A stretch of DNA of 46,258 bases, from positions 1-46,258 of IMG/VR virus record IMGVR_UViG_3300032268_000986; one strand, given 5' to 3'. This stretch comes from a virus. Shown piece by piece: positions 5,321-33,400 of the stretch (position 1 is the first letter of the stretch; every line of letters starts with the position of its first letter). The notes beneath the pieces were generated by a model. The model did not search any database and had not been told where the DNA came from. It saw only the letters and a list, made by a program, of their open reading frames with translations. The translations under genes were made by a program, and so were the position numbers.

Positions 5321-5749
5321 CTAAATTTTGTTGATTATGTGACTGCCGTGTACACGAACTTGAATATGTCCGTTGTACCAGTCTCGTGATTCTAGCACTC
5401 TGCGTGAAAATTGTTCTCTTGCTTCGATATAGCTGCATTCTGATTTGGACTTGCAGTAATAAAGTATTTCTCGTTTGAAGTTGTCTTTGCCTTGTAGTTC
5501 CACATCCCGGGAGAGTTCTGGTGAGCTACCGTAGTAGTCGCGCCAATCACTATCCACCTTGGATCGAATCTTTTTCTTCTTCTTGCTGCCGTTTTTGAGT
5601 TTGACTGTGCGTTGAGATGTTTTAGAGAATTTTGCTAGTTTTTTGCCAATGTACATGCGACCTGTGGTGATGTTTGTGATTAGATACACAAAACCCACGC
5701 AGTCTTCGGGTAAAATATCAATTGCTTGATTGTTGTATAACCATGTCAT
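5321..5749 (-). CDS. GIY-YIG-like nuclease
   Basis: The N-terminal region has the GIY-YIG signature in relaxed form: GFVYLIT near residues 19-25 and MYIGKK near residues 32-37. A lysine-rich loop, then DWRDYYGSS and a REILYYC segment follow, as in phage GIY-YIG nucleases of the homing or Seg type. I chose the ATG at 5749 (protein MTWLYNNQAI..., 142 residues), which avoids overlap with the radical SAM gene. An upstream ATG at 5776 is also possible, and neither has a strong ribosome site. It is the last gene of the long minus-strand unit. A mobile homing role is plausible but not shown. Confidence 0.65.
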   Translation of the reverse strand: MTWLYNNQAIDILPEDCVGFVYLITNITTGRMYIGKKLAKFSKTSQRTVKLKNGSKKKKKIRSKVDSDWRDYYGSSPELSRDVELQGKDNFKREILYYCKSKSECSYIEAREQFSRRVLESRDWYNGHIQVRVHGSHIINKI

Positions 5750-5769
5750 AGAACATGTAGTTATCACTG

Positions 5770-6783
5770 CTACCACGAAGTTGCGTAATTTCTATCCACT
5801 ACCGAGCTTTTGCATTTTGTCTGACATTCCTGCCATTTAAATGTTTGAAACTCATTGGTCCAGTACGGATCTGCCAGTGCGTCTGTTAATGTTCTTGTGT
5901 TTAAATCAAAATTGTTTGAGATTTGCTGCCAGTCTGAATTGTGATTGTATCTGTTGGCCACCCAACAGCAGGGAAATAACCTGCCGCGAGCATCAATGTA
6001 CAATCCTTTGTTGCCTATTTTGCATAACGGAGTTACTCCGTTATGACTTGAAGTTTGATTGAATAGTTGTATGTTTGTGTTGGAAACAGGTTCTTCTGCT
6101 CCGTGTGCAGTAAATGCAGTTGTTTCACGTTCAAAACGATGTGTACTGCTGATATATTTCATGCTGGGTTGCAATGGATCGTCTACACCGTAAGATGGAT
6201 ACACACTGCCAAACTTGGTACTCTTGGTCAACTGAAAGCGATCAACACCCATTGACTGTGCAAACTCTTTCATGTGATCCAAGTGTTCTTCGTTGAACTT
6301 GAAAGCTATGGCAGCCCATACAATTTTGCAACGGCTTGATGCTCGTAGAGATGTCATGCCATTCACAATGCTATCATAGTCGCTGTTGACACGATACATG
6401 TTGTTGCTGGTGTTGTCATGCCCGTCTACACTAAAATGCACACTGTCATTGGAATCTAACACTGTTCCCAGTTCCGTCCACCAAGCGGTTTTCTTATGTG
6501 ACCCGTTGGTGACAACAACAATCTCTACAGGTCGGATGCTTTTGATGTGTTGGATAACCGGAATCAAGTCATGTGCATAGATGGGATCGCCATCGTCACC
6601 ACAGAATGTAATTTTTTCTACGTTGTCTTGTACAAATTCTGATGTGAAATTACGTTTGAAGAATTCCAAGTTCAGTTCTGTGTTGACCAGACTGTGGGGT
6701 ACTTCTTGTCGAGAACATCGGGGGCACCGCAAGGTACACTTGCTGGAAATCTCAATGTGAAAATGCCAAGTCGCTAGGGTCAT
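5770..6783 (-). CDS. Radical SAM protein with C-terminal cysteine cluster
   Basis: Residues 16-23 carry CTLRCPRC, the C-x3-C-x2-C motif that binds the 4Fe-4S cluster for S-adenosylmethionine cleavage. GDDGDP near residue 62 is at the usual glycine-rich SAM-binding position. The C-terminal third has further cysteines (CKIG, FPCC, CQTKC) as in SPASM or twitch domains that hold extra clusters. These enzymes often modify peptides or proteins, but no precursor peptide is visible nearby and the substrate is unknown. Its ATG overlaps the gp46 stop by four bases (6780-6783), so the two are translationally coupled. Confidence 0.85.
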   Translation of the reverse strand: MTLATWHFHIEISSKCTLRCPRCSRQEVPHSLVNTELNLEFFKRNFTSEFVQDNVEKITFCGDDGDPIYAHDLIPVIQHIKSIRPVEIVVVTNGSHKKTAWWTELGTVLDSNDSVHFSVDGHDNTSNNMYRVNSDYDSIVNGMTSLRASSRCKIVWAAIAFKFNEEHLDHMKEFAQSMGVDRFQLTKSTKFGSVYPSYGVDDPLQPSMKYISSTHRFERETTAFTAHGAEEPVSNTNIQLFNQTSSHNGVTPLCKIGNKGLYIDARGRLFPCCWVANRYNHNSDWQQISNNFDLNTRTLTDALADPYWTNEFQTFKWQECQTKCKSSVVDRNYATSW

Positions 6784-8855
6784 GCAATTTCTACATCTGT
6801 GTTGTAACTGGTAAAGCCGTTTTCTTTGATGACTTTGAGAATGTTTTCCACACGCCCAGCTAACTCATCTCTGTGGCTCACTAGCCAAATACTCTTGTGG
6901 CGTTCTCGAGTCATCTTCTTGAGCAAGCCCAGGGCATTTTCTACACCTTGTGTGTCTAGGCCGTTGTCTATGAGTTCGTCAATGAACAACAAGTTGATGG
7001 GTGAGTATAAACTTTCCCACACGTCACGGAATGCCCAGCTCATGCTTAGGATCAATCGATTGCGTTCACCACGGCTCAAATTGTCAAAATCCAGCTCACG
7101 ACCCAGTTCCTCAATGCTAACACTCAAATCGTTCTGAAATTTCACAGTGTGCGGCAGGCCAATACGATCCAAGTAGTGGGTAAGACGTGCGTTTAGATAA
7201 CTCAAGTTCTGATCAATAATTTTCTTGCGCACAAACGAATCCTTGGAGGTCAACAGTTTGAGCAAGAATTCTTGATGTTCTTGTATACGGGTAAGTTCGT
7301 TAATGGTATCATAGCTGACCACTTGCAGTGCTTGTCGTTGCATGTCTGCAATTTGTTCAGTGTATGGATCAGTCTCCAAGGCCTTGCGCTCAATTTGATC
7401 TACCAGGCTGGCAACTCTACTGCGATGTTCAATGGCTTCTCGTTCGGTATCATAGTGTGTGCGCGGCTGTGTCCCCAACACAACTTCTGTATGCTCAGTT
7501 AACTGCTCGGCAAAAGGATTGATTTCTGCTTGCTTGTCTTCCCATACTTTTTTCAAGTTAGCAACATCGCCGCTGTGTCGGATTGCCTCAGCTTCAGTTT
7601 TGTACAGCGGCTTGGGTTTTACCGCGGCAACAAAAATTTCAACTTGCCTGAGTTCATTCCACTGATTTGTCAATGCAGTTGCATGTGCTTGAGCATCTTC
7701 AAGCATTTTTTCTTTGTCGGTCAGCACTCGAATATGTTGATCATCATGAAACTCTTGACCACATGCATAACACTTGTGATCCAGCAAGGATTCAATTTCT
7801 GCTGAAAGTTTTTTAACAAGTTTGTCTTCCTTGTCAATTTCTTTGGTCAGGCGTGCAAGTTCACGATCTCGATCTTCAAGCTCCTTGGACTTTTGTAGGT
7901 ACTCATTGAGTTGCCGCCATGTATCAAGTTCAGTTTCAATGTCGTACTGATTTTTGTCTAAATAAGCACGTCCGGCAGCATCAACATCGGCATCATGCTT
8001 TTGTTGCCAGGCTGTACTGCGAGCAACCAATGCAGTGTGTGTGTCCTTTTGCTGCTTCAGTGTGTTCCAAATTACCAAATCTTTGTGTGCAGAAAGTTCA
8101 GCCTCAATGTCCAGCGCACTGAGGTCATTGTATTCAGTCATGACTCGTTCAAGATCTTCACTGTGTTTTTTCTGCCACAGGGTTTGTCTGCGACGAAGCC
8201 CATCTATTTGTTCTTCTATTCTGGTGTTGGCTTCTTGCACTGCTCGGATACGAAACTCTTCCTGAGTAACAGCATCCTTGGTCTGGCGGTTTAATTCTTT
8301 GACACGATCAGCTTTTTCACTGAGCATGGTAATGCCCAACAGTTGTTCAATGATGGTGCGCTGGTCAAGGGCCTTGAGACTCAAAAACGGTTCGGTATAA
8401 GTGTTCAAGGCCAGCACATGTTTGAACATGTCATGACTCATGTTCATGATGCGTTCAATGGCATCTTGGGTTTCTCGACTGTCGCCCTGGGCTTCGTCAG
8501 TGGCAGACTTTTCTTCATTGTTGACATAGAATTTCAGCACATTGGGTTTGCGTCCGCGCTCAATTCGGTATTCAACACTGTTTACAGAAAAATCAAGACT
8601 GACCAGCATGCCTTTACCATTGGTCTTGTTCACAAGATTGTCCTTGCGAATGTTGCTCAAGGCATTGCCGTACAATGCGTAACTCAGAGCATTGATGATT
8701 GTGGTCTTACCAGTACCATTGCGACTGCCATCGCCTCCTAGGTCTAAATTTTCACCCAGCACCAGTGTGAGATCTTTGCGATCAAAATTAATACCTTGTG
8801 TGGCATTACCCACACTCATGAAGTTTCGAACAGTGAGATTTTTAATTTGAATCAT
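6780..8855 (-). CDS. 46: Recombination nuclease large subunit gp46 (SbcC/Rad50-like)
   Basis: This SMC-type ATPase partners the gp47 nuclease to process DNA ends for recombination-dependent replication. Walker A is GSRNGTGKTT (around residues 43-52). Long coiled-coil arms flank the zinc hook CYAC at 362-365. The ABC signature LSRGERNRL is near residue 591 and Walker B LLFIDEL near 624. At 691 residues it is longer than T4 gp46 (560), mostly in the coiled coil. In T4 the gp47 and gp46 genes are neighbours, but here three foreign-looking genes separate them. The start is preceded by a region with a perfect inverted repeat (8892-8913) and a TACAAT box, so it may have its own promoter. Confidence 0.93.
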   Translation of the reverse strand: MIQIKNLTVRNFMSVGNATQGINFDRKDLTLVLGENLDLGGDGSRNGTGKTTIINALSYALYGNALSNIRKDNLVNKTNGKGMLVSLDFSVNSVEYRIERGRKPNVLKFYVNNEEKSATDEAQGDSRETQDAIERIMNMSHDMFKHVLALNTYTEPFLSLKALDQRTIIEQLLGITMLSEKADRVKELNRQTKDAVTQEEFRIRAVQEANTRIEEQIDGLRRRQTLWQKKHSEDLERVMTEYNDLSALDIEAELSAHKDLVIWNTLKQQKDTHTALVARSTAWQQKHDADVDAAGRAYLDKNQYDIETELDTWRQLNEYLQKSKELEDRDRELARLTKEIDKEDKLVKKLSAEIESLLDHKCYACGQEFHDDQHIRVLTDKEKMLEDAQAHATALTNQWNELRQVEIFVAAVKPKPLYKTEAEAIRHSGDVANLKKVWEDKQAEINPFAEQLTEHTEVVLGTQPRTHYDTEREAIEHRSRVASLVDQIERKALETDPYTEQIADMQRQALQVVSYDTINELTRIQEHQEFLLKLLTSKDSFVRKKIIDQNLSYLNARLTHYLDRIGLPHTVKFQNDLSVSIEELGRELDFDNLSRGERNRLILSMSWAFRDVWESLYSPINLLFIDELIDNGLDTQGVENALGLLKKMTRERHKSIWLVSHRDELAGRVENILKVIKENGFTSYNTDVEIA

Positions 8856-8891
8856 GCAATATTGTTATCAGAGTATGAATACATTGTAGAT

Positions 8892-8913
8892 GATTGTGTT
8901 ATACAACACAATC
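8892..8913. promoter_or_regulatory. Perfect 9-bp inverted repeat upstream of gp46
   Basis: GATTGTGTT and AACACAATC flank a four-base centre. It sits between the stop of the upstream ANL gene and the gp46 start. On the minus strand a TACAAT box follows shortly downstream, with TTGTGT (part of the repeat) 17 bases before it. That is the geometry of an operator over a weak promoter. No T-run follows, so a terminator is less likely. Confidence 0.45.
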
Positions 8914-8927
8914 AATTAGGCCTGATA

Positions 8928-10328
8928 CTATCTGAGTTTGAATTTGATTCGAAAATGATTTCTCACATGAAACTCATTGAGAGTCATGTCGCATGCTCTA
9001 AAGTCACTGAGATTCATCTGATCTACATAATTTATTTGTACCAGTGGTGATAATTTGCTGAGTTCAGCATTGATCATATTGACTATGTCATCGGGCTGCT
9101 CAACGGTTTTATCGATCAACAAATAAACTCGATTCATTGTGGGGTCAGCCAAGAGATACACAAGAGACGGATCAGTTGTTTGTTTGACAATGTTGTCTAG
9201 ATCAGTGACCGAAAGAATAACGTCATTTATACGTAGGTATGAATTACGATGTCTGAACTCATACCCAGTATCGGTCAACTCAAACTCGTCGGGAAAAATC
9301 ACTGTGCCTTGATATTTGTTGCTGACTTGTAGTTTGTTGCCATTGACAAGTTTGACTTGATAAAAATCATCAATAGGAAATCCAAAATCCATGCAGTTGT
9401 GAGTGTCTGGAGAGTCTTTGGCAATTGTGTTGATAAACACCGGTGATGACATCTCCATGCAACCAAACAACGATGTAACTGAGTTGATATTTTTCTCTCT
9501 CATTAAATCAAGCCAATTCAGTTGATTGCCTTGCAGTGATAGTATGTCCACAGCCTTGGTAAACTTTTTGGCGTTCTGAATAAATCTCTCAGTGGTGATA
9601 CTATTGGGCATGGACATCTTGTTGATTCTTTCGCGCTCAACAAAGTCGGCAATTTGTGCTAGTTTATCAAAATTTAAAATAGCGCCATAGTGATGTTCAC
9701 ACACGTTCAATGATGGTAACAGCATGTTATTCAATCCTCCGCCATGGTGCGATCCATGCAGATGTAACATACGATCGTTGGGGTTAAACTTGTGTATGCC
9801 CACACATCGGTCCGACAATTCCCGACTGAACGCATGAGAATATTCCACAGACTTTGGCACTAGATCCGCTGATGCTGTCACTGCCTTGATCATGGCCAGG
9901 CGATCCGAGAAACCATGTGGCATGTGATCCATTGTGTTGTGTTTGGCAACATAATGGTGCCAAACATCCAGCTGTATCACGCAGCCGGTATGAGGTTGTT
10001 CTTCGTTGGCTTTCTCCTGGGAGTCTACCACTGTGGCAGTAAACGGTGCATGAAAAAGGCTGAAACTTGGATTTTGTAGAACATACGAAGCACCCAATTC
10101 CCAAATAGCAAACATTAAAGAAATCCATCTCAGGTCTCGGTGACCAATATTCAATGCAACTGTGGATCCTGGACCCACATTTGCTTGTTCGACCAAGATG
10201 TTTTTCCAGTGGTCAATGCTGGCTGAAATTTCAGCATAGTCAGAAACATGGTCAACATTGAAGTTGGAATCAACTTGATACCATTTGATGTTTTTGTTGA
10301 TATAGGTTCTGTCAATTAGTTTATTCAT
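8928..10328 (-). CDS. ANL-superfamily paralogue, apparently inactive
   Basis: This 466-residue protein aligns end to end with the upstream ANL enzyme: both begin M-x-x-x-x-DR, share WELG near residue 75, share LLxNQxNW/LQGNQLNW-type segments, and end in the same small C-terminal domain. However, the ATP-binding P-loop is replaced (SSGSTGIPTKG becomes TASADLVPKSV), YGAMEV becomes FGCMEM, and the lysine expected near the C-terminus is replaced (SHKF becomes CDMT). It is probably a non-catalytic partner or regulator. I chose the ATG at 10328, which has AAGGAA four bases upstream, overlaps the preceding stop, and matches the start of its paralogue. An earlier ATG at 10358 would add ten residues. 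Confidence 0.7.
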   Translation of the reverse strand: MNKLIDRTYINKNIKWYQVDSNFNVDHVSDYAEISASIDHWKNILVEQANVGPGSTVALNIGHRDLRWISLMFAIWELGASYVLQNPSFSLFHAPFTATVVDSQEKANEEQPHTGCVIQLDVWHHYVAKHNTMDHMPHGFSDRLAMIKAVTASADLVPKSVEYSHAFSRELSDRCVGIHKFNPNDRMLHLHGSHHGGGLNNMLLPSLNVCEHHYGAILNFDKLAQIADFVERERINKMSMPNSITTERFIQNAKKFTKAVDILSLQGNQLNWLDLMREKNINSVTSLFGCMEMSSPVFINTIAKDSPDTHNCMDFGFPIDDFYQVKLVNGNKLQVSNKYQGTVIFPDEFELTDTGYEFRHRNSYLRINDVILSVTDLDNIVKQTTDPSLVYLLADPTMNRVYLLIDKTVEQPDDIVNMINAELSKLSPLVQINYVDQMNLSDFRACDMTLNEFHVRNHFRIKFKLR

Positions 10329-11724
10329 CTGATTCCTTGGCAAGGTTAAATTTGTCAATAAAATATCTCTTTACCTGAGATAAGTTAAATTTATGTGAGT
10401 TGATAAATGTAGTGATATCAACCAAGCTCACATGATCAAGGCACAACCCGTCAGCAATCTTGGCCAAGTCAGCATTGATCTTGCTTGCTAGTTGGTTGAC
10501 TTGATCTTGGGAATACCGTTGGTCAACCAACAAGCAAACTCTGTCAGAGACTGCAATTATACACATCAAACTGGGATTTCCATGCACAAACACACACTGT
10601 TCTATTGCGTTCCATGGAACATCCTGTCCCTGTAGTCGGATATTTTTATCTCGATTACCATACAGTAGATTACCTGCATGATCCTGTACAAAATAATCCT
10701 GGATCACGTGCGATTTAACTTCCAGCAAGGGGTGCGACACTCGAAGATTGTTTTGGTCAGTTAACTCGATTGTGTAAAAATTATCCAGTGGCTGTCCAAA
10801 GTTCATTGGAGAATAACTGTCATCAGTTTGTTGAGTAATTTCGTTGGCCAGTACCGGGGTGAACACTTCCATTGCACCATAACTGGTGCGTATTGACTGA
10901 ACATTTTTTTCTTGAATCAACTTGATCCAGTTGGATTGATTTGCCAGTAACTGAAATATTTTAACAGTGTGGTTGAATCGTGGAGCATGAGTCAAGAACA
11001 ATTCTATAGACAACGGATGCGGCAGCATGATCACATTGATTTTGTGATTACTGACATATTGAGCAAGTTCGGCCATGCGGTCAGCCACAAACGGTAGACT
11101 GTGGACATGCTCAAATTGCGCAAGAACTGGCAATAAATGAGCCAGTACCACGTTGTGTGCGCCGCCATGTACCAACAATGCGCTTTCCAGCCCAGGTTGG
11201 TCCAATCCCAGTGCTGAGATATTGCGCTGACCCAATGCATACATGAACTCATGTGAGTGATTGCCCTTGGTTGGGATTCCGGTAGAACCCGACGAATTGA
11301 ATCCCAATACAGAATCAGTGGGCTGACATATTGCCGCAGTGTCGGCCGCAACATGGCTGTCATGATCAAGTTTGCCAGACAGATAATGCAATGCATGCGG
11401 TTTTAGTGTCTCTGCAGAGGCAGAGTCTGACACTATCACATGCCATGGCGCCCATAGGTCTGGGTAGCTTGGATGGAACGCAGTTTGTTTCCCCCCAAGT
11501 TCCCAGTTGGCCACAGTAACGGCCAGCCAATTGATATCTCTAATTTCAAAGTTTAATAAAATCTGGCGGCCACGTCCGTGACCATGTTGATGTTCAAGCA
11601 CATGTTTCCACTGATTTATACAACGATCAATGTCGTCGCGAGTGTGTACTTGAACATCATCAAGAGTTCCAGAATGCCACGACAGTTCTGGATTTAAAAA
11701 CTTTCTGTCTAGCACAGTTTTCAT
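10321..11724 (-). CDS. ANL-superfamily adenylating enzyme (acyl/aryl-CoA synthetase-like)
   Basis: ANL enzymes activate a carboxylate with ATP to an acyl-adenylate, usually followed by transfer to CoA or a carrier. The P-loop SSGSTGIPTKG lies at residues 144-154, the A5-like motif YGAMEV at 282-287, an A8-like hinge segment GNRDKNIRLQGQ near residue 370, and a candidate A10 lysine in NSHKFNLSQ near the C-terminus. At 467 residues it is compact for the family (usually 500-560), so I cannot name the substrate. Its ATG follows the binding-protein stop by one base without a clear ribosome site, suggesting coupled translation. Its stop overlaps the start of the second ANL paralogue. Confidence 0.8.
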   Translation of the reverse strand: MKTVLDRKFLNPELSWHSGTLDDVQVHTRDDIDRCINQWKHVLEHQHGHGRGRQILLNFEIRDINWLAVTVANWELGGKQTAFHPSYPDLWAPWHVIVSDSASAETLKPHALHYLSGKLDHDSHVAADTAAICQPTDSVLGFNSSGSTGIPTKGNHSHEFMYALGQRNISALGLDQPGLESALLVHGGAHNVVLAHLLPVLAQFEHVHSLPFVADRMAELAQYVSNHKINVIMLPHPLSIELFLTHAPRFNHTVKIFQLLANQSNWIKLIQEKNVQSIRTSYGAMEVFTPVLANEITQQTDDSYSPMNFGQPLDNFYTIELTDQNNLRVSHPLLEVKSHVIQDYFVQDHAGNLLYGNRDKNIRLQGQDVPWNAIEQCVFVHGNPSLMCIIAVSDRVCLLVDQRYSQDQVNQLASKINADLAKIADGLCLDHVSLVDITTFINSHKFNLSQVKRYFIDKFNLAKESDE

Positions 11725-11725
11725 G

Positions 11726-12688
11726 TCAATTGATTTTGATCTGATGTTTCTGTATGGCCTGATCGGATATTTTTTTAATGTCAGTTAGCATCTTGGAAAA
11801 TTCTTTTGAGTCCAAGGCTCTGGGATTTCCGTGGCCGGCTTCGATGGCCTGCCGTACCTTGACTGACTCAGATGCCGAAATCAAGTCGCGTTCAATCTTG
11901 CTTGCTATATTTTTGTCAAGGTTGTTGGACACAAAATATCCCAATAGACTTGGCACAAATTTAGAATCTCGGCCGGTTAGTTCACGAATCGTGGGCACCT
12001 GAGGCAACTTGGGGTTTCGTTTCTCGCTGGTGACAGCAACCACACGCAACTTGCCGCTGTCGATCATGCTGACTGCAGATCCGTAACTGCTGCACGACAA
12101 TGGAAAGGCCTGATTGTGTAGGTCTGTGTACCAGACACCGTACTCTTTGTATGGTACATGCTCGGGTGTGTTTTGACTGATGACAGATGCCAGTTCAAGG
12201 CCGCAAAAATGCCCCACTGAAGCCACTGACCAAGAACCAAACATGGGTCTTTTGCGAAATTCTCCTAGTACTTCTTCGGTGGTGCTGTATTTGCTTGAAG
12301 CAACCACTACCATTTCGCCCACATAAGACAGTGCAATCGGCACAAGAGATTTTGTTGAATCTTCTCGATTGGCCAGAACAGGTGCAGTAATAACAGCAGC
12401 CGAGTCCACGGCTAAAATCACATGATTGCTGCGAGCAGACTCTTGATTGAATTCATTCAGAGATACCAATCCACCACCACCTGGGCGATTTTCAATGACC
12501 ACTGATTGCTTCCATTTGGCCGACAACTCCTCGGCTGTGAGCCTGAATACCACGTCAGGTCTTGATCCAACTGGTAAATTGGTAATGATTTTTACCGTTT
12601 GCACAGGCCAGTCTGCTGCAACCGCAGACGTTGCCAACGCAGAAATTACTGCTAGCTGACTGACTTGTTTAAAAATCTTAGTGAACAT
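11726..12688 (-). CDS. Bug/TctC-family periplasmic solute-binding protein
   Basis: Members bind small carboxylates (such as citrate, aromatic acids or amino acids) in the periplasm, usually for tripartite tricarboxylate transporters. The mature part opens with WPVQTVKIITNLPVGSRPDV and IENRPGGGG near residue 80, the family hallmarks, and ends with the usual D-x-x-EF...I..HQIKIN pattern. The N-terminus is a clear signal peptide: MFTKIFK, a hydrophobic core, then AVA before ADWP. I chose the ATG at 12688 because AAAGGAGA lies just upstream; the ATG at 12712 would place eight polar residues before the signal and lacks a ribosome site. Such genes are typical of Burkholderiales and unexpected in a phage. 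No transporter membrane subunits are present, so it would have to use host ones or act alone. Confidence 0.88.
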   Translation of the reverse strand: MFTKIFKQVSQLAVISALATSAVAADWPVQTVKIITNLPVGSRPDVVFRLTAEELSAKWKQSVVIENRPGGGGLVSLNEFNQESARSNHVILAVDSAAVITAPVLANREDSTKSLVPIALSYVGEMVVVASSKYSTTEEVLGEFRKRPMFGSWSVASVGHFCGLELASVISQNTPEHVPYKEYGVWYTDLHNQAFPLSCSSYGSAVSMIDSGKLRVVAVTSEKRNPKLPQVPTIRELTGRDSKFVPSLLGYFVSNNLDKNIASKIERDLISASESVKVRQAIEAGHGNPRALDSKEFSKMLTDIKKISDQAIQKHQIKIN

Positions 12689-12708
12689 ATATTCTCCTTT
12701 AAAGTTGT

Positions 12709-13725
12709 TCATAGTGTTTGATATATCTGTAGTAGCAGTGCCGAATCATAAAAGTCTGATTCAATATTGGTGAGTTGATCTGTGACAATCTGATCCACTG
12801 ATTCAAATTTTACATCACCAGGAGCCAAGTCTGCGCCAACATCAGAATTTGAATTGAGAATCAAACTCATTTCGCGCAGTTGGTACTTGGTGATGAAAGT
12901 TTCTTTGATGAAGTTGGCTTCTTCGTAAGAGATATCAATATCAATATTTACTCGCACATGCATGCGAGGCCGCAAAAGTTTGTCGGCATTGTCAATGAGG
13001 TTGGCAAGACCATACACACGATACGTGGGCTGATCGGGCCAGGCATGGAACTCGGGCTCTTGACCCCACTCTAGAATCATCATGCCACGTTCATCGTCGC
13101 CAGCATCGGCATAGTTGTGCGGAAAGCAGTTGCCGATGTAGGTGATGTTTTGTTTGGTCTGTCGCTTGTGAAAGTGACCAGTGAACACATGTTCAAAATT
13201 GTTGAAGTCTTCTCTGCGAACTGATCCATGGTCCGGCATTTCCACCATGGCGTTCATGAGGTAGCCGGGCAGTTCAAAGTGCCCAAACATGTATTTGCCT
13301 TTTAGTTTGGGAATACGTTTGTGATCATCTCCACAGAGCCAAGGAGCAATAACCACATCACCACTAGAGAACCAATCGTTGCATATTTCCACACGGGGCA
13401 AGTGACGAGCCCATTCCACACTTTGAATGTCGCGTTTGTCGCGATAATAAAGATCGTGATTACCAGGAATAAAGTAAACATGTTCAAAATTATCATTCAT
13501 GTGCTCCAGTGCCCGTAGGCTGTAGTTCAAAGTAACAATGTTTAGGCTGGCTCGATTGTTGTGCCAGTCACCCAGAAACATGCAGGTCTCGCAGCCTGCT
13601 TTGCGAGCTTGAGCAGTGGCCCATTTTACAAATGTCAAACAGTCCTCGTTGTGCAAGGTACTGTTTGATTTGAGTCCAAAATGAATGTCTGTAAAGACCG
13701 CGGCTTTTTTAAATAGATTACTCAT
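12709..13725 (-). CDS. 47: Recombination nuclease small subunit gp47 (SbcD/Mre11-like)
   Basis: This metallophosphoesterase-type nuclease works with gp46 at DNA ends. Metal-binding motifs appear in order: D-x-H (DIHFG, residues 13-15), GDWH at 52-55, GNHD at 88-91, then GHFE and TGHFHKR in the second half. Its length (338) equals that of T4 gp47 (339). It starts 12 bases after gp55 ends and stops 20 bases before the binding-protein start, whose ribosome site lies in that gap. Confidence 0.93.
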   Translation of the reverse strand: MSNLFKKAAVFTDIHFGLKSNSTLHNEDCLTFVKWATAQARKAGCETCMFLGDWHNNRASLNIVTLNYSLRALEHMNDNFEHVYFIPGNHDLYYRDKRDIQSVEWARHLPRVEICNDWFSSGDVVIAPWLCGDDHKRIPKLKGKYMFGHFELPGYLMNAMVEMPDHGSVRREDFNNFEHVFTGHFHKRQTKQNITYIGNCFPHNYADAGDDERGMMILEWGQEPEFHAWPDQPTYRVYGLANLIDNADKLLRPRMHVRVNIDIDISYEEANFIKETFITKYQLREMSLILNSNSDVGADLAPGDVKFESVDQIVTDQLTNIESDFYDSALLLQIYQTL

Positions 13726-13737
13726 CTACCTAGTATA

Positions 13738-14637
13738 CTACTGATCCAAGCTGGAAACAACCGGTCCGGACAAAGCAGCCATGCTGGCCTTGCCAGAGTT
13801 TTGGCGTGTCCATGATGGATTGAGTCCGTTGATTTCCAAGATGTCATCACGTATGTTCTGCATTTTCTTTTCAATGTTCAGGATGCGAGTAAAGCTATTA
13901 GTGATAGCGGCAGTATAATACGCAAAAGGGTTCTGCGATTTTGACTCGTCAAATTGCAGGCCAATTTGGCTGAGTTGTAGCAGGGCTTGTCCCCGCATTT
14001 CTTCGTTGTAGGTGTATCCACGCCAGTTGCTCCTTGTTGCATATCTCTCACACAGTTTCATGAACATCATGGCCAATTTGCGAGTCATGTTGCCATGTTC
14101 ACGTGAAAATTCTCCAGTTTCAATGTCGCCGCGCCAGTGGCTGCGCCCCACTCGAAATGGCACCTTGTCCTGATCCAGTCGATAGTGCTCAAACGGTGGG
14201 AAGTTCAGTCTCACATAGTTCATGTCCAGAACCGGAGTTTCCAACAGCTCCTCCAGCCCGTCTTCAACCGGTGTGTCTTCCAGTTCCAGTAGCTCTTCGA
14301 CTTTGCGTTTCTTGGCCTCGGCCTTGCTGATCTTCTTGGGCGCCCGGGGTATGTGATCCCAGCAAGTGATGCGGAACACCAAGTCTGTATTGGGAATTTT
14401 CTTGGGATCAATCACTTCCCCGGTTTCGCGTTTGATACGGTCAGCACGATTGCGTCTGGCCTCGGCCACAGTGCGAATATTGATCCGGTCAAGACTGGGC
14501 AGGATAATATCAAATTGATGATCTAGCACACGATCTTGATACCAGCAGTAGGTGTTTTTGCTAAGGTGTATTTCCTTGAGTATGTCCCGGTTGTTTAAAT
14601 AATTTACCCGGGCAGGTGGTTTGGGCAGTAAAGTCAT
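13738..14637 (-). CDS. 55: Late-transcription sigma factor gp55
   Basis: The C-terminal part has the gp55 core: YTYNEEMRGQALLQL, then FDESKSQNPFAYYT and a helix with RILNIEKKMQNIRDDILE, matching the T4 pattern (NPFAYFT followed by ..R...KEKKQ). gp55 guides host RNA polymerase to TATAAATA late promoters together with the sliding clamp. It is 299 residues against 185 in T4: an N-terminal domain of about 110 residues (with YLNNRDILKEIH and LVFRITCWDHIP) and an acidic linker of about 35 residues precede the core, so it may be a fusion. A near-consensus sigma70 promoter and AGGAG lie upstream. It heads the minus-strand unit. Confidence 0.85.
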   Translation of the reverse strand: MTLLPKPPARVNYLNNRDILKEIHLSKNTYCWYQDRVLDHQFDIILPSLDRINIRTVAEARRNRADRIKRETGEVIDPKKIPNTDLVFRITCWDHIPRAPKKISKAEAKKRKVEELLELEDTPVEDGLEELLETPVLDMNYVRLNFPPFEHYRLDQDKVPFRVGRSHWRGDIETGEFSREHGNMTRKLAMMFMKLCERYATRSNWRGYTYNEEMRGQALLQLSQIGLQFDESKSQNPFAYYTAAITNSFTRILNIEKKMQNIRDDILEINGLNPSWTRQNSGKASMAALSGPVVSSLDQ

Positions 14638-14752: not shown

Positions 14753-17002
14753 ATGTCTAACGAAAATATCAACGCCAGTAATAGAGAACAGTTGGCAGCG
14801 CAGGAAGCGGCAAAAAACACCAACGACATAAATGCCAAACAGGCTGGGTTGTTTGTTGCTGCAACAAAGGCGCTTGCAGACGGTGCCAGAGAATTTGCTA
14901 CTATTCCGCAGGGACTGGCTGATGCAATTGACAACGCCAGATCAGATCCAAACGTGTGGAATTCATTTACCACAGAAGAAAAGGCTCAGCTGCTAGTTGA
15001 CCGTGAAGATTACCTAAAACAAGCCGCTACTTTCAAAGAACAATCAGCTGAACTTGATAAACAACTTGCTCAATCCACAGCTGAATTAAGTCAAATGACT
15101 TTTAACGGCGAGAAACTTGACACCAATATTGCACTCACTGAACAGTCCCTGAGAGAAAATTTTGGACTGCCGGCGGATTTTACAATTGCAAAAGCCAGCA
15201 CAATTGATGATCCTGCTGGCGATGCAAACGACTTAATACCTCCGCCCCTGGGTCCGGTCAGTGTGCAAGACCCCTACGGGGTGTTGGCAGCCGAAGACGA
15301 AGCCTTACGTCAGGAAGAAATAGCTCAAAGTGATGCCGATGCCTTTGCCTCTGCTGCCACCGTGCGTGATCCTACTGGAGTACTGGCCGCAGAAGATGCT
15401 GCCTTGACCGAGCAAGCAGCAGCTCAGGGCGATGCCGATGCCTTTGCTGGCCTAGCCACTGTGCGTGACCCCGCTGGAGTACTGGCAGCTGAAGATGCTG
15501 CCTTGGCCGAACAAGCAGCAGCACAAGGAGATGCTGATGCATTTGCCTCTGCTGCCACTGTGCGTGACCTCACTGGAGTACTGGCCGCAGAAGACGCTGC
15601 CTTGGCCGAACAGGCAGCGGCACAAGGAGATGCTGATGCATTTGCTGGATTAGCAACGGTGCAAGATCCCAATGGGGTGTTGGCAGCAGAAGACGCTGCC
15701 ATAGCCGAACAACAAGCAGCACAAGGAGATGCTGATGCCTTTGCCTCTGCTGCCACCATACGTGACCCCGCTGGTGTGTTGGCCGCAGAAGATGCTGCCT
15801 TGGCCGAACAAGCAGCAGCACAAGGAGATGCTGATGCATTTGGTGCCCTGGCCACTGTGCGTGACCCCACTGGGGTGTTGGCAGCAGAAGACGCTGCCCT
15901 GGCCGAACAGGCAGCGGCTCAGGGTGATGCTGATGCATTTGGTGCCCTGGCCACTGTGCGTGACCCCACTGGGGTGTTGGCAGCAGAAGACGCTGCCCTG
16001 GCCGAACAGGCAGCGGCTCAGGGTGATGCTGATGCTTTTGCTGGCCTAGCCACTGTGCGTGACCCCACTGGGGTGTTGGCAGCAGAAGATGCTGCCTTGG
16101 CCGAACAGGCAGCGGCTCAAGGTGATGCCGATGCTTTTGCCACTTCGGCCTTGGCCAATAATGAAAAAAGTGCCACGCTGACCAAGGCTCAAGAACAACG
16201 CACACTGCAACAACGCTACAAACAACCGGGCAACCAGGACTGGCGTGTGCGCTTGGTGTTGGCCGAAGGTGCCAACTATCTCTACAAAGACACTGCCAAT
16301 CAGTTGTTAAAACCCTTGATGAATGCCAATGGAGTTATCTTTCCATACACACCCAGCATTGCAGTAAACTACACAGCCAACTATGACAACACTGATCTCA
16401 CACACAGCAACTATCGTGGTTACTTTTACAAAAGCAGTGTCGTGGGCGAGGTCACCATCACGGCCACATTCACAGCACAAGATACTGCGGAAGCACAGTA
16501 TCTGCTGGCAGTGATACACTTTTTTAAGTCAGTGACTAAAATGTTCTACGGACAAGATGCACAACGCGGTGCGCCACCGCCATTGTTGTATCTAGTGGGA
16601 CTAGGAGAATTTCAGTTCAACGGCCATCCCTGTGTGGTCAAAAATTTTCAATACACTCTGCCCACCGACGTGGACTACATTCGAGCCAGCAGCCCCAACA
16701 ACTATGGCATTAACCTGTTGAATCGACGCACGGCCACAACCACACCCAGCAATCCAATTTCTTCTGTGCTGAACCGTTTGCAAAATGCTGGTCTTTTTCC
16801 CGGTGCCAACCCCAAAACTACAACACCTAATCCAGGCCCCACCACAGGCACAGTGAACAACACACAGCGGCCAACCTATGTGCCCACCAAAATGGACATG
16901 ACCATTCAGTTGTTGCCGTTGCAGACTCGTTCACAGGTGAGCCAGCAGTTCAGCGTCAAAGAGTTTGCCAATGGTAATCTGCTCAAAGGAGGATTCTGGT
17001 AA
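14753..17002 (+). CDS. 48: Baseplate tail-tube cap gp48, with long repeat extension
   Basis: The C-terminal 260 residues look like T4 gp48, the ring that caps the baseplate and starts the tube: GVIFPYTPSI, NYTANYD, HSNYRGYFY, then FTAQDTAEAQYLLAVIHFF with VTKMFYGQD, PPPLLYLVG, and LPTDVDYIR. In front of this are about 170 residues rich in Gln, Ala and Glu (helical), then nine 33-residue repeats with DPTGVLAAEDAAL and QGDADAF. T4 gp48 has 364 residues, so the extension more than doubles the protein. AGGA lies upstream of the ATG. The 3' end contains AAAGGAGG, the ribosome site for the next gene, whose ATG overlaps the stop. Confidence 0.8.
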   Translation: MSNENINASNREQLAAQEAAKNTNDINAKQAGLFVAATKALADGAREFATIPQGLADAIDNARSDPNVWNSFTTEEKAQLLVDREDYLKQAATFKEQSAELDKQLAQSTAELSQMTFNGEKLDTNIALTEQSLRENFGLPADFTIAKASTIDDPAGDANDLIPPPLGPVSVQDPYGVLAAEDEALRQEEIAQSDADAFASAATVRDPTGVLAAEDAALTEQAAAQGDADAFAGLATVRDPAGVLAAEDAALAEQAAAQGDADAFASAATVRDLTGVLAAEDAALAEQAAAQGDADAFAGLATVQDPNGVLAAEDAAIAEQQAAQGDADAFASAATIRDPAGVLAAEDAALAEQAAAQGDADAFGALATVRDPTGVLAAEDAALAEQAAAQGDADAFGALATVRDPTGVLAAEDAALAEQAAAQGDADAFAGLATVRDPTGVLAAEDAALAEQAAAQGDADAFATSALANNEKSATLTKAQEQRTLQQRYKQPGNQDWRVRLVLAEGANYLYKDTANQLLKPLMNANGVIFPYTPSIAVNYTANYDNTDLTHSNYRGYFYKSSVVGEVTITATFTAQDTAEAQYLLAVIHFFKSVTKMFYGQDAQRGAPPPLLYLVGLGEFQFNGHPCVVKNFQYTLPTDVDYIRASSPNNYGINLLNRRTATTTPSNPISSVLNRLQNAGLFPGANPKTTTPNPGPTTGTVNNTQRPTYVPTKMDMTIQLLPLQTRSQVSQQFSVKEFANGNLLKGGFW
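15257..16147 (+). repeat. Nine 99-bp tandem repeats inside gp48
   Basis: Each unit encodes 33 residues on the pattern DP-x-GVLAAEDAALAEQAAAQGDA followed by DAFA and ATVR. The first copy is the most divergent, while copies seven and eight are almost identical in DNA, which points to recent duplication. The unit is alanine/glutamate-rich and probably helical. Confidence 0.95.
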
Positions 17003-26900: not shown

Positions 26901-27414
26901 CAAAGATACCACCGACACTGTTCCCGAACCATCGCAGCCCACAATTGATGAACTAAGCACAGCCTATCAAGGCCTGCAGGATTACAAAATGCTGAGTGAC
27001 AATATTGTGTTGAATTCTGTAACTTTCAAACCACTGTTTGGTGTCAAGGCAGCACCAGAACTTCGCGCTACTATAAAAGTCATACGTGCTCAAAACAGCA
27101 CAGCCAGCACCAGTGAGATCAAGAGCTCGGTTGTAGCGGCCATGAATGATTATTTTTCTATTGACAAATGGAATTTTGGAGACACATTCTATTTTTCAGA
27201 ACTAGCAGCATTCTTGCATAGAACACTGGGAACCATCATATCATCTGTGGTCTTGGTACCGTTAAATACACAAAAGAGTTTTGGTGATTTGTATGAAATA
27301 CGCAGCCAGCCCAATGAAATTTTTGCAAACGCTGCAACCATTGCCAACATTGACGTGATAGAAGCATTGACTAGTACCAACCTACGTACTGCCCCTGGTA
27401 GCGGAGTAATTTAA
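23968..27414 (+). CDS. 6: Baseplate wedge protein gp6
   Basis: The N-terminus is clearly gp6-like: DWKQIYQTYREADFQSYDFE, then FVDYLRLYYPE, SSEFIALLDVIAFMGQSLAFR and ARRDSVVRLA-type (AERRDSVVRLANLVSYTPKR). gp6 forms the wedge iris that opens during sheath contraction. With 1148 residues it exceeds T4 gp6 (660), the extra sequence being mostly in the middle and beta-rich, including VSYRDSDDDGVPDNPDF (about residues 827-843), which resembles a calcium-binding Asp-rich loop. The stop overlaps the start of the giant gene by one base. Confidence 0.9.
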   Translation: MAITTRQTAIFGVEDWKQIYQTYREADFQSYDFETLRKSFVDYLRLYYPETFNDYIESSEFIALLDVIAFMGQSLAFRTDLNTRENYMDTAERRDSVVRLANLVSYTPKRNTAAQGMLKVFSVSTTENVVDYNGVNLSNVTVDWADPTNPDWQEQFAAIINASLVDTQRVGRPGNRQTILGVRSDEYSINLVPGYLPVIPYTATVDGLNMPFEAVTCTSVGEDYLYEPPPQSNVPFNMIFRNDQLGFQSANTGYFFMFKQGTLINQDFNLAERISNRTVNINVDGVNNEDRWLFQLDTVGTVSREWAYVENIYSAAAEQVATSLRPIYTVTSRANDQITLVFGDGVFSEIPVGTFRAYVRASNGLQYIINPEEMQSVTLPITYRSRTGNTETITFTCGITQPVSNSQAREPIEEIKQRAPARYYTQNRMVNGEDYNLFPYTQYNSIVKSKALNRASIGTSRYLDLVDNTGKYSSTNSFGSDGAIWQQLILPTILFSWINRNDIADVITNQLQPAILGPTMLQFYYDQFPRQDINTGSTLGTTWQQSTTLANETTGYFKNASGTPIPVGSSLFPTDPLYFVNVGALIKFTAPTGYYFDSNNRLVQGTPTRADERLEVWASPISITGEGDNGGVGNLTNGSGPVALNNFVPTGAVVDSIIPLFITDLPLSLEQAMTEQIVLYRNFGLGYDNDGTITGTPYTWYLITSTNLDADADFSLDNAGSTAGTNQDASWLIQFVVQNQNYTITFRGLAYYFGSVLQTRFFYYDGQKVYDSRTGTVIKDFINVLAVNTLPNSTDHLPGDVYATIIGQPVESDGYVDDFQVLVSYRDSDDDGVPDNPDFFSEIVGAIPETPTASSPWVFLQQTVDFDNLQRYLLVEPGRVNADYATYDDIELVKNEWSPGQIFYAYSAGTFWLLSLSTAGVRDLVQQSGWIARNGRSALYYQYRHNAPLVNRIDPGTTNIIDLYVVTLAYYTAYQNWIKDTTDTVPEPSQPTIDELSTAYQGLQDYKMLSDNIVLNSVTFKPLFGVKAAPELRATIKVIRAQNSTASTSEIKSSVVAAMNDYFSIDKWNFGDTFYFSELAAFLHRTLGTIISSVVLVPLNTQKSFGDLYEIRSQPNEIFANAATIANIDVIEALTSTNLRTAPGSGVI

Positions 27415-30400
27415 TGGCCAGCACTGTTCGTTCTGTAGATTTTCTACCAGAGATTTTTCAAACTGATGCCAACAAGCAATTCTTGGCAGCCACACTGGAT
27501 CAGTTGATTCAAGAGCCCAAGTTCAAAAAGACTCAGGGCTTCATTGGCCGCACCGTGGGCCCAGGTGTAAACCCCAATGACAAATATGTAGTTGAACTTG
27601 ACAAAACACGAGCTGACTACCAACTTGAAGTTGGTGTTGTGAGTCTCAAGCCTGACACCGACGATATTCAGACAGTGATCACGTATCCAGGCATCAATGA
27701 CGCTGTGGCACAGCAAGGTGGTATTACCACACGGCCAGATCGTTTGTATTCAAGTGAATTTTATTCTTGGGATCCGTTTGTTGACTTTGATACATTTATC
27801 AACTTTTCACAGTACTACTGGCTGCCCACTGGCCCTGACGCAGTAGATGTAGCTGCCACCGGTGTGCCAGCCAGTGATAATTTTGTTGTGACTCGTGAAA
27901 ACGGTGCGTACACATTTTCAGGCCTTGCCGGTGAGAACCCCACTATTGAATTGTTACGCAACGGCAATTACACATTTCAAGTTGCACAAAACAACAAAGA
28001 AACTGTCAACTATCGTGTACGAAATTCAGGCAACAGCAGCTATACCATTAATTATGAAGCCAATCCTGCACTGACCTTGGCTCGTGGTAACACCTATGTT
28101 TTCAATCTAAACCTTACTGGTGATTATCCCTTTTGGATCAAAACTGAACCATCAACCGGCCTGGGTGACATCTACAGCTCTGGAGTCAGTCGCAATGGCG
28201 CAGTAACAGGATTGATCACATTTGTGGTGCCACAGGATGCGCCAGATACCTTGTACTATTCGGCACAGACACAGAGCAACATGAATGGTGTACTCAACAT
28301 CGTTGATGGTGTGCCTGGCACAGGACCTGGTTTTTGGATTCAGTCAGCACCTGGTGTAAGCGGACAATTACCTGCTACTCCCAACATAAGCAGTCGTGAA
28401 GTTTTGGGAGTGATCAACAACGGTGAAGATCTTGGTACTGTGACATTCAATGTGCCTAGTAAAACTGCCCAGGAATTTTATTACAATCTGACCAACATTG
28501 GTGTGGTCAACCTGATCACTGATCTTCAATTTGATCAAATCAACAACCAGCCAATTGCATCGTTTATTGCTCAATACGGCGGCATTGACGGAGTAACCAA
28601 CCTCAATGGTCGTACTCTGATATTCGACAACTACAATCCAAACATCACTGATGCTGAAACCACTGGGTGGCAACGCACCACATTGTATGATCCCTTGATT
28701 GAATCATCGGCCAACAATGGGTTACCTGGCAGCTTTGACAGTATTCCTTATGATCAGGTGACAGATATCCCGCCAGAAGATCGTTATCAAATCTGGCAAA
28801 TTACCTACAGCAACATTGGTGGCGAGCTATACCTTGAACTCAATAAGATTACTGACATTGCGCCCTTGGAAAAGTTTAACATCAACTATGGTAATGTCTA
28901 CAGCAGTACTCAGTGGTACAAGGACAATGACGGACTGATCAAACAGATTCCTGCATTGACTGCCATTCAAGATACAGTGTATTATCAAGACGGCACAGAC
29001 CCGTCTATTTTTGGTCGCATCAAACTGCTGGATCAAACACAGCAGTCCACCTTGTTTGTTGACGAAATCATTGGCAAGAAAAATTACACCGCAGCCAATG
29101 GTGTGGTGTTTACCAACGGTCTTAAAATTATATTTCGTGGTGATGTGGAACCAGCCACGTATCTCAATACTGAATACTATGTGTCTGGAGTTGGCACAGC
29201 AATTGAATTATTGCCAGTTTCTAATTTTATCACTCCTGAAACCTATGTGCCTGAAACCAACGACTCAGGCCTGCCCATTCCCGAAGATCTAGATTACTTG
29301 ACCATTGATCGAAGTGCGCAGAATCTCAATGCCTGGAGCCGCAGCAATCGTTGGTTCCACGTTGATGTGATCAGCGCCACCTCTAGATACAATAACACCA
29401 CAACAGTGCTGGACAACAACTATCGTGCCAAGCGCCCAATTATTCAGTTCCGTCCAGACATTCGTTTGTGGAACATGGGCACACAGGGCAAGCAACCAAT
29501 TGATGCAATTGACTTTGAAGAAACTGATGCACTGTCAAATGTAAACGGACAACCCAGTTACACAGTCAACGGATATAGTTTGGTTCAGGGTTCTCGAGTG
29601 ATTTTTGCAGCTGACGAAGACGCTGATGTCCGTAACAAAATCTATGTGGTGAATTTTATTTCGCCAGATTCAGCGTTGCCGCTGCCCGCTCCACTGACCG
29701 CACAACCCTACATCAATTTGGTACCAGCCAGTGACGGCGAAGTCTTGCTTGATCAATCAGTGGTGTGTTTGTACGGTACAAACACCACTGGAATAACCTT
29801 TTGGTTTGACGGTACTGAATGGACTCAAGCACAACAAAAAACTGGAGTACAACAAGCACCATTGTTTGATGTGTACGATCCTGATGGCATCAGTTTTGGT
29901 AACACTACCAAATATCAATCCACTACCTTTGCCGGCAGCAAGTTGTTCAGTTACGCTGTGGGAGATACCAATATACTGGACCCAGTGCTGCAATTCCCAT
30001 TGCAGTACCTCAACATCAACAACGTTGGTGACATTGTATTCCAAAACAATTTATACAAAGACACATTCTTGTATGTGCAAGACAATGTCAGCGTTACATC
30101 AGACATCAGCTCAGGATCAGTTCGTGAATATATTGATAGATTGACATATCAGTTGTTGATTGGCTGGCAAACTGCGGTATCACCTACCACAATGCGTCAG
30201 CAGTTTAAATTCACCTATACCACTGCAACTCTCAAGCTAGATGTCAAAGTAGTAGATGACAACACAGTGCCGCCAATACAGCTTTATGTTGGCAGCAAAT
30301 TTCAAGAGCCCAGTGTCTATACCTACACCACCACGGACAACAGCACCACAATTACTCTGTTGAATACCTATGTGATTGGTGATGTGATTGAAGTTGCGGT

Positions 30401-33400
30401 GCTTAGTGATCAAGTCAGTCAAGTGGCATTTTATCAACCGCCATTTAACCTGGAAAAAAATCCACTCAATGGCAACAGCGATGCCTTCACACTGGGCACA
30501 ATTCGAACTCATTATGAAAGTATTTGTGAAAACTTGCTGACCTTGAATGGTGCAATCAATGGTCCAAACAATTCGCGAGATCTAGGCAACTTGGTGCCAT
30601 ATGGACAGATTATTCTGCAACAGAGTGCGCCGGTTACCATGGCTGGATACTTTCTGAGATCAGACAAGTACAATATATTTGGCGCCTTGCAATACAACAG
30701 CCGTGAGTACACCAAATTCAAAGCCTTGATGCTGGATGCAGTGACTCGTCAGACCATTAATTTCCAAACACCCAGTGAGATTCTCAACACAGCAATACAA
30801 GACATCACTGTTGGACGAGTTGAAACACAACCATTTTACTGGAGCGACATGCTGCCCCAGGGTGCTGTGTACACCAGCACCACATACACTGTGACCGTGA
30901 TCAGCACCAGCACATTTGACACTGTGCAAGTGTATGACTACACTTCAGCCAATTATCTTGGATTGTTGGTTTACTTGAATAATCGATTGCTGGTGCGTGG
31001 GGTAGACTATGTGGTAGCAACTGATGGCCCACGGTTTACAATTCTAGTACCCTTGGCCGTGGGCGACGTGGTGTTGGTTGATGAGTACGCATCCACAGCC
31101 GGCAACTTTGTTCCCAATACTCCCACTAAACTGGGATTGTACCCTGCCTGGCAACCAGCCGTGATTCAGCAACGTTCAAGCAAAGGATACATCACAGGTA
31201 TTCTAGGCCACGACGGCAGCTTTACACCGGCGTTTGAAGACATTCGTGATCAAGTGTTGCTGGAGTTTGAAACCCGTATCTATAACAATTTAAAGCTGGA
31301 TGGTAATCCAGTTCCAATGACAATTTACGATGTGTTGCCTGGACAGTTTCGCGACACCGGATATACCTATGCTGAAATAAACAATATTTTTGCCGGCGAT
31401 TTCATGAGCTATGTGGCCTGGAACAAACTGGATTACAAAACGCAAGCATATAATTCCACCAATTCGTTTACCTACAACTACAGTGGCAGTCAAAACAAAC
31501 TTGACAACGAAAATTTGCTGGGCGCCTGGCGCGGCATCTATCGTTATTTCTATGATACTGAACAACCTCAGCTAACTCCCTGGGAAATGTTGGGCTTATC
31601 TATCAAGCCCACCTGGTGGGAGTCCACATATGGTGCGGCACCGTACACTCAAGACAACTTGGTGTTATGGGATGACCTAGAAGCCGGCTATGTTCGAGAT
31701 CCAATAACTCCTTACTACAAACCAGAATTTGCTAGACCAGGATTGACCAGAGTCATTCCCACTGGCACTGAAGGTGACTTGTTGAGTCCGTTTGAGTCTG
31801 TGGTTGGCAATTACAATGCCATCACATTCCAAAAATCCTGGGCCCTAGGCGATGGTTCTCCTGTGGAAGCTTCATGGTGGAACAGTTCCAGCTATCCATT
31901 CTCGGTCATGCATGTGCTGGCAGTCACACGCCCAGCCAAGTTCTTCTCACTGTTTGCTGATCGAGATCTGTACCGTTACAACACTGACTATCAGCAATAT
32001 CTTTACAACAATCGATATCGCTTGGATGCCAATGGCATTGAGGTATATGGCAACGGCGTCAGCAAGGCCAGTTTCGTTGACTGGATTGTGGATTACAATC
32101 GTCAAACTGGAGTGGATTCCACAGATGATCTCACTGCGGATCTCAAATTTTTGGATGTGAGATTGTGCTATCGCATGGCCAGTTTTTCAGACAAACAGTA
32201 CATCAAACTGTACACAGAAAAGTCCAGCCCCAACAGCACCAACACTGCATTGCAAATACCCGATGAAAGTTATGATCTGTTGTTGTACAAAAATCAACCA
32301 TTTGATCGAATCAATTACAGCGCAGTTGTGGTACAACAAACACCTGGTGGTTATGCAGTGTTTGGTTACAGTACTGTTAGCCCGTACTTTGAAATTGTGC
32401 AGAGCAAGGCCACTGGCCAGTTGCAGACCATCTCAGCTGGCGGAGTCAGCGTTCAAGTTCCAACTCTTTACACCGACACCGTGGTGCAAGTGCCGTATGG
32501 ATTTGTATTCCCCAATCAGTCCGGTGTAGTTGATTTCTTGTTGTGCTATGGTCGATTGATGCAAAGTCAGGGCCTGACATTTACTAACTATGCCAATGGA
32601 TATCTCTTGGACTGGCAACAAATGTCTCGTGAATTCCTGTACTGGAGCACACAAGGCTGGGAAGACAATGCCTTGATCAATCTCAACCCCTTGGCCAACA
32701 AATTGTCAGTCACTAGCCCAGGCTTAATTGTGGACAGCATACGAGTTCAAACCACTGATGATATTTTACTGGATCAGAATCGTCGTCAACTGGACACACG
32801 CAGTCTAAACATTGTTCGACTGGATAACACATTCACTGCCGAACCACTGACTGGGCAAACTCTCAGTTATATTGACCTGAGTTTTACCACTTACGAGCAC
32901 ATGATTGTGCTTAGAAATCAAAGTGTTTTTGGCGACTTGATGTATGACCCAGTGACCGGGGCTAGACAGAATCGTCTCAACCTTGTGGCAGTTACCACCA
33001 CGGATTGGAACGGAACTGTCAACGCTCAAGGCTTTATTCTCAACCAAGACAACGTAGAAGAGTGGACTGGCCTGCGCACCTACAGCAAAGGTGAAATTGT
33101 CAAGTACAAGAATGTGTACTGGTCAGCCTTGACCATTGTTCAGCCCAGTACTGCATTTGACTTCAACGACTGGGTGCAAAGTGATTACACTCAAATTGAA
33201 CTGGGATTGTTGCCCAACTTGAGTAACAAAGCCAATCAATTGGCCAACAGTTACAACACCAATGCGGCCAACATTGAGTCTGACAATGATTTGCTGAGCT
33301 ACGGTCTAATTGGATTCCGACCACGTCAGTACATGGCAGCACTCAATCTTGATGATGTGAGTCAAATCAATATCTATCAACAGTTCCTGGGCAGCAAAGG

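Follow-up and report, generated by a model that had tools for sequence, protein, structure and literature searches.

Why would a giant phage carry genes related to organic-acid uptake and activation between its gp47 and gp46 genes, and do these genes act together during infection? The question is raised by a stretch of 46,258 nucleotides (the window, meaning the whole of the DNA analysed here) that belongs to a 342,865-base virus record from a giant, T4-like environmental phage. A first-pass annotation of the letters alone had placed a Bug/TctC-type binding protein and two ANL-fold genes between gp47 and gp46 at 8928-12688; these coordinates are correct, and Pfam and AF2 results support the identities.

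Organisation of the locus

All genes of the locus lie on the minus strand, in the order gp55-like late sigma factor (13738..14637; phrog_12791, 1.1e-74), gp47, the SbcD-like nuclease subunit (12709..13725; phrog_100, 4.8e-63; 86-87% identical to that of locus L001), Bug/TctC (11726..12688), ANL1 (10321..11724), ANL2 (8928..10326), gp46, the SbcC-like ATPase subunit (6780..8855; phrog_77, 3.1e-102), a radical SAM/SPASM protein (5770..6783; phrog_21308, 8e-25; 77% identical to that of L021) and a SegE-like GIY-YIG protein (5321..5776; Pfam SegE_GIY-YIG, 2.9e-33). Stops and starts had been described as lying within one to a few bases of each other, which agrees with the 1 bp between Bug and ANL1 and the 6-bp overlap of ANL1 and ANL2; 20 bp separate gp47 from Bug and 72 bp separate ANL2 from gp46. 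Bug is preceded by the Shine-Dalgarno sequence AAAGGAG, and ANL2, whose likely start is the ATG at 10326 rather than the TTG at 10358, has its own AAGGA. The statement that gp47 and gp46 are neighbours in T4 was mistaken, as the small genes 46.1 and 46.2 separate 46 from 47 in that phage; PA5oct and 121Q have the two directly adjacent or almost so.

The insert is not a product of chance, given open reading frames of 320-467 codons, the recurrence of the Bug-ANL pair in 13 other viral contigs and dN/dS values of 0.04-0.15. We also considered a chimeric assembly, against which stand the same 13 contigs and the presence of homologues of the TctA-neighbouring genes (see below) near Bug and PP-loop genes of G004.

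A cargo hotspot around gp47 and gp46

A scan of viral contigs for gp47 gave 80 loci, the best 80 of at least 583, and in the 78 of these that contain both genes the gp47-gp46 gap was either at most 60 bp (39 loci) or at least 300 bp (39 loci), with none between. Filled gp47-gp46 slots, together with the gp55-gp47 and gp46-SegE slots, hold varied cargo in which radical SAM genes are commonest, the remainder including sulfotransferase-like, SGNH (called by eye; DUF6071 by Pfam), SDR, 2OG oxygenase, methyltransferase, amidinotransferase-like (our own reading) and ANL genes. The region from gp55 to SegE, of which the sigma factor forms the upstream and the GIY-YIG gene the downstream boundary, is thus a modular cargo hotspot in a clade of jumbo phages and offers a place to survey metabolic cargo in hundreds of them. 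The window carries its radical SAM/SPASM gene in the gp46-SegE slot, and this gene has a weak score to pVip in PADLOC; in L001, gp46 is followed by radical SAM/SPASM and SDR genes, the gp46-SegE slot of L038 and L106 lacks a radical SAM gene, and the operons of L113, L114 and L116-L118 include an SGNH gene.

Predicted functions of the inserted genes

The 320-residue product of the first inserted gene matches Pfam TctC (PF03401) at 1.1e-24 over profile positions 1-272 of 274, a match that spans the whole mature protein, and its closest solved relative by sequence is Bug27 (1.6e-22). Its AF2 model (pLDDT 86.6) has a type II periplasmic binding fold; every one of the first 17 fold matches belongs to the TctC/Bug family, with BugD at TM 0.76-0.86 and Bug27 at TM 0.74-0.84, and several of the top matches are proteins of known carboxylate ligand. 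Residues 1-24 (12617..12688, minus strand) read as a signal peptide, MFTKIFKQVSQLAVISALATSAVA, which ends in AVA and is followed by ADWP, and a Sec signal peptide is present in all full-length phage Bugs of the cassette; these assignments were made by eye from the sequence rather than with a predictor. The phage Bug is therefore a putative secreted protein of the carboxylate-binding type, its ligand class being predicted from its family. Purifying selection acts on both genes, with dN/dS values of 0.04-0.15 (Bug) and 0.09-0.13 (ANL).

Pfam AMP-binding recognises ANL2 at 8.7e-10 and ANL1 weakly (0.009). The AF2 model of ANL1 (pLDDT 80.7) is a full-length ANL match comprising both the N- and C-terminal domains, with 645 PDB matches at E <= 0.001 and a best value of 2.4e-19, although identity to the best solved fold matches is 11-17%. 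Many of the fold matches are aryl-acid adenylating enzymes, but the matches are broad and give no substrate. By alignment, ANL1 keeps the A3 ATP-binding loop SGSTGIP (residues 145-151; 11272..11292), the A7 aspartate D343, the A8 arginine R358 and, at the position of the A10 catalytic lysine, Lys445 (10390..10392), and it is probably an adenylating enzyme with a putative role in acid activation. ANL2, a divergent paralogue of 23-29% identity, retains the A7 Asp and A8 Arg, and has TASADLVPKS at the A3 position and Thr in place of the A10 lysine; it alone among 13 phage ANLs has lost both elements, the lysine being kept in the other 12. ANL2 is on these motifs probably a pseudoenzyme, so that of the two adenylating enzymes first proposed both genes stand as ANL members while only ANL1 looks catalytic.

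The A5 glutamate is replaced in the ANLs of some relatives. No PP-binding carrier protein was found in the genome. An 82-aa gene beside ANL in L022 and L052 was considered as an acyl carrier protein partner and rejected, as it encodes DUF6356; by eye its product is a small membrane protein.

Linkage and joint transfer of Bug and ANL

The first-pass annotation had treated the inserted genes as a unit that relatives should not carry apart, and this was borne out for Bug and one ANL gene. A Bug-directed scan of viral contigs, with patterns derived from the cassette Bugs and more distant phage Bugs thus lying outside the sample, found ANL adjoining Bug in 12 of 12 contigs, and an ANL scan added a thirteenth. 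In all 11 of these 13 contigs that show both flanks, the pair lies between gp47 and gp46. Bug comes first in seven and ANL in six, five of the latter having an SGNH gene directly before ANL. Among contigs with the pair a second ANL occurs in the window only, so that the three-gene set as originally described is particular to this phage and the unit in relatives is Bug plus one ANL. A further five contigs hold ANL in the gp47-gp46 slot with no adjoining Bug, and the gp55-gp47 slot of one contig is occupied by a different ANL. The gp47-chosen sample also associates Bug with ANL (Fisher p = 0.003), but it includes only two Bug-positive loci and these are near duplicates; pairing is consequently better supported by the 12 of 12 contigs of the Bug scan.

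Comparisons between contigs show that the pair also moves together. L106 and L113 share 95% identity in gp47, 48% in Bug and 38% in ANL, while L106 and L108 share 69% in gp47, 87% in Bug and 82% in ANL. Identities of Bug and of ANL rank the phages alike and the two tree topologies agree, whereas gp47 similarity does not follow them, which indicates that the Bug-ANL cassette is a unit of exchange as judged from these sequences, plausibly by recombination in the flanking core genes.

Bacterial relatives and possible ligand

Eight phage Bugs form one clade (100/100) that is sister to 13 Burkholderiales Bugs from Comamonadaceae, Alcaligenaceae and other members of the order, within a bacterial set picked by patterns from the phage Bugs. 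A GSW motif is found in the phage Bugs and many of the sister Bugs, and a second tryptophan (YGxW or FGxW) in the phage Bugs only, among the rows compared. Within the sister clade, L126 has the protocatechuate 4,5-pathway genes ligK, ligA and ligB as neighbours; a 3-oxoacid CoA-transferase gene lies close to L141 and an FAD monooxygenase gene close to L158. These neighbourhoods point weakly to an aromatic or dicarboxylic acid as the best guess for the ligand, and the sister Bugs likewise point weakly to a Burkholderiales host. For the phage ANL, no near relative was found in 12 Burkholderiales genomes (best score 36 bits, against about 535 for members), and the substrate class is therefore not readable from homology.

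Transporter and PP-loop genes elsewhere in the genome

Outside the window, the virus record encodes a TctA membrane subunit (102054-103355 of the record; PF01970, 154 bits, positions 1-418 of 423) and a second TctC (177247-178209 of the record; 70 bits). No PF07331 (TctB) match was found in the record, which may be incomplete. TctC occurs in 16 of 37 relatives' records, among them each of the four records that reach about 300 kb or more, while TctA was found in none of the 37, most of which are fragments; with neither TctB here nor TctA in relatives, most cassettes would need a host transporter. A search for close viral relatives of TctA found none, and its matches among phage records are weak (22-29% identity) and mostly to unannotated records. 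A 284-aa secreted protein encoded upstream of TctA was considered as a binding protein, but this could not be demonstrated.

Several other Bugs in relatives adjoin a gene with an SGGxDS PP-loop motif. A profile built from members found near binding proteins retrieved 10 members from 23 whole records, of which eight lie beside or near a Bug (one of them about 1.4 kb away) or, in this genome, beside TctA. Pfam does not recognise this family, which is assigned by its motif. No obvious signal peptide is present at the start of two DctP-type binding proteins of relatives.

Proposed function and alternative explanations

That related phages with Bug keep ANL beside it suggests the uptake and activation of a small organic acid during infection, an interpretation strengthened by the phage TctA and by the sister Bugs of Burkholderiales, which include one from an aromatic-acid locus. 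We posit, with confidence that is evenly balanced, that Bug and ANL form a module for carboxylate capture, import and adenylation, carried as a mobile metabolic cassette of jumbo T4-like phages. Bug would be exported through Sec, bind a small carboxylate in the periplasm and pass it to the membrane component of a tripartite tricarboxylate transporter; this would be the TctAB of the host or, here, the TctA that the phage itself encodes at 102 kb. Once in the cytosol, the imported acid would be converted by ANL1 with ATP into an acyl-adenylate, which would probably proceed to a CoA thioester and so trap the acid inside the infected cell, to the possible benefit of the phage; ANL2 may be a decayed copy or a regulator of ANL1. 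We counted against the module the replaced A5 glutamate, the lack of a PP-binding carrier in the genome, the lack of a TctB match in the record and of TctA in the 37 relatives' records, and the lack of a near relative of ANL in the 12 Burkholderiales genomes. The five contigs with ANL and no adjoining Bug also imply that ANL can work without it.

These same five contigs favour the strongest rival, in which the hotspot has gathered many unrelated cargo genes, Bug and ANL among them, and these two are adjacent through one ancient capture and joint inheritance and share no pathway. The variety of the cargo that the slot also accepts (radical SAM, SGNH, sulfotransferase-like, 2OG oxygenase, methyltransferase and amidinotransferase-like genes) fits this explanation, as do the two near-duplicate loci that are the sole Bug-positive ones behind the Fisher test, but the pair survives both gene-order reversal and transfer between divergent phages with each gene under purifying selection, and we regard inheritance without a shared pathway as unlikely, if still a serious competitor. 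Host control rather than nutrition would be the purpose if Bug were a periplasmic sensor or signalling partner, or a sponge for a signalling acid, with ANL making or destroying a signal. It is common for Bugs to be orphans, encoded apart from any transporter genes, and some have been suggested to act in signalling (PMC5812351); the DctP-type proteins lacking an obvious signal peptide would suit a cytosolic sponge; the clear signal peptide on Bug, the TctA in the same genome and the lack of a PADLOC match for Bug or ANL all weigh against this reading, which we consider improbable. PADLOC likewise had no match for the PP-loop family, and a defence-system reading of Bug, ANL and PP-loop genes was rejected on this result. 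A very improbable explanation, in our estimation, assigns ANL to surface or natural-product chemistry with the radical SAM, SGNH or SDR cargo, an acyl or aryl acid supplied by Bug being activated so that it can be attached to a glycan or peptide of the host surface. It draws on the radical SAM/SPASM and SDR genes of L001, on the SGNH genes within five operons and on the aryl-acid adenylating enzymes among the broad ANL1 fold matches, yet the cargo neighbours vary, as in L038 and L106, whose next slot lacks a radical SAM gene.

Returning to capture, import and adenylation, the PP-loop genes tentatively extend this reading, at a likelihood we place somewhat under even, to a general strategy in these jumbo phages of binding outside, importing and adenylating inside. 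Enzymes that release pyrophosphate from ATP, belonging to two unrelated folds, would be the regular partners of secreted TTT-type (sometimes TRAP-type) binding proteins. The enzyme would be ANL in the gp47-gp46 cassette and PP-loop (SGGxDS) at other loci, and in one case a phage TctA would accompany it.

Comparison with known systems

The first-pass annotation knew of no described phage system with this combination, and our searches concur. Neither Bug nor ANL matched PHROGs; ANL matched no annotated phage record, and Bug matched one unannotated faecal contig at 30% identity. In the literature on phage TctC, on ANL and radical SAM genes of jumbo phages and on phage solute-binding proteins, within a coverage that omits most subscription journals, no description of the pair was found. 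AMP-dependent ligases of uncultured Caudovirales (A0A6J5L571 and A0A6J5L563, in BFVD) are phage ANLs of similar length, known from deposited annotations only.

Among cellular systems, the phage Bug shares family, fold and signal peptide with the TTT (TctABC) and orphan Bugs of Burkholderiales, as well as the placement of orphan genes far from TctAB, but it is phage-borne, forms a distinct clade and has a fixed ANL neighbour, and no TctB was found. ANL1 has the two-domain full-length fold and the A3, A7, A8 and A10 motifs of aryl/acyl-CoA ligases and NRPS A domains, whereas the phage ANLs form a separate family at the low identities given above.

Most of what is known of nutrient uptake encoded by phages concerns phosphate and cyanophages. 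Their PstS, like the phage Bug a phage-encoded secreted binding protein, binds phosphate and is believed to improve the nutrient supply of the infected cell (PMC5083919). The phage Bug differs from it in protein family and ligand class. PstS is not known to be paired with an ATP-dependent activating enzyme. If our interpretation is right, jumbo phages infecting heterotrophs, with several receptors of this type and in one case their own TctA, would use dissolved organic acids to feed the cells they infect, and Bug and ANL offer a specific testable protein pair, together with a clade for ligand search. A TctA domain on viral contigs has a precedent in the tctA match on SUP05 phage contigs (PMC4164917), which concerns another host group and, in the accessible part of that report, is a domain match only, with no binding-protein or ANL pairing seen. 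Phage-encoded binding proteins (PstS) and a tctA domain on phage contigs are thus already known.

Binding-protein and transporter genes elsewhere in the genome

A second TctC/Bug gene, coding for a solute-binding protein, is located on the minus strand of the whole 342,865-base viral record (G000 177247-178209; locus L010), where it adjoins a P-loop-like gene and one more cargo-like gene. Relatives with the same neighbour genes occur in several large phages, and the copy in the related phage G015 is 87% identical. The phage also encodes a TctA transporter subunit (G000 102054-103355, minus strand; locus L006), flanked on one side by the gene for a 284-aa secreted protein and on the other by that for a PP-loop (SGGMDS) protein. 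In five loci from relatives' records (L220, L222, L224, L226 and L227), a gene of the PP-loop-motif family, which has no Pfam entry, adjoins a Bug or DctP binding-protein gene; two of the DctP-type proteins at these loci are without an obvious N-terminal signal peptide.

Cargo within and outside the hotspot

The gp55-gp47-gp46-SegE stretch constitutes a cargo hotspot with three slots (window 5321-14637; viral loci L021-L100), in which radical SAM/SPASM proteins are abundant. Several consecutive genes resembling hotspot cargo, radical SAM included, lie outside it at G000 ~50294-59920. Two viral loci without Bug encode an 82-aa DUF6356 protein immediately after ANL (L022 4531-4776; L052 11408-11653). 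An amidinotransferase-like protein (L043 10014-11063), assigned by eye and without a Pfam match, has three homologues in G000 (63176-64219, 130669-131685 and 233692-234852), likewise assigned by eye.

Elsewhere in the window, the structural region contains a single 4790-aa ORF (27414-41786), and a 749-aa protein (14753-17002) carries ~10 tandem repeats (VRDPTGVLAAEDAALAEQAAAQGDADAF).
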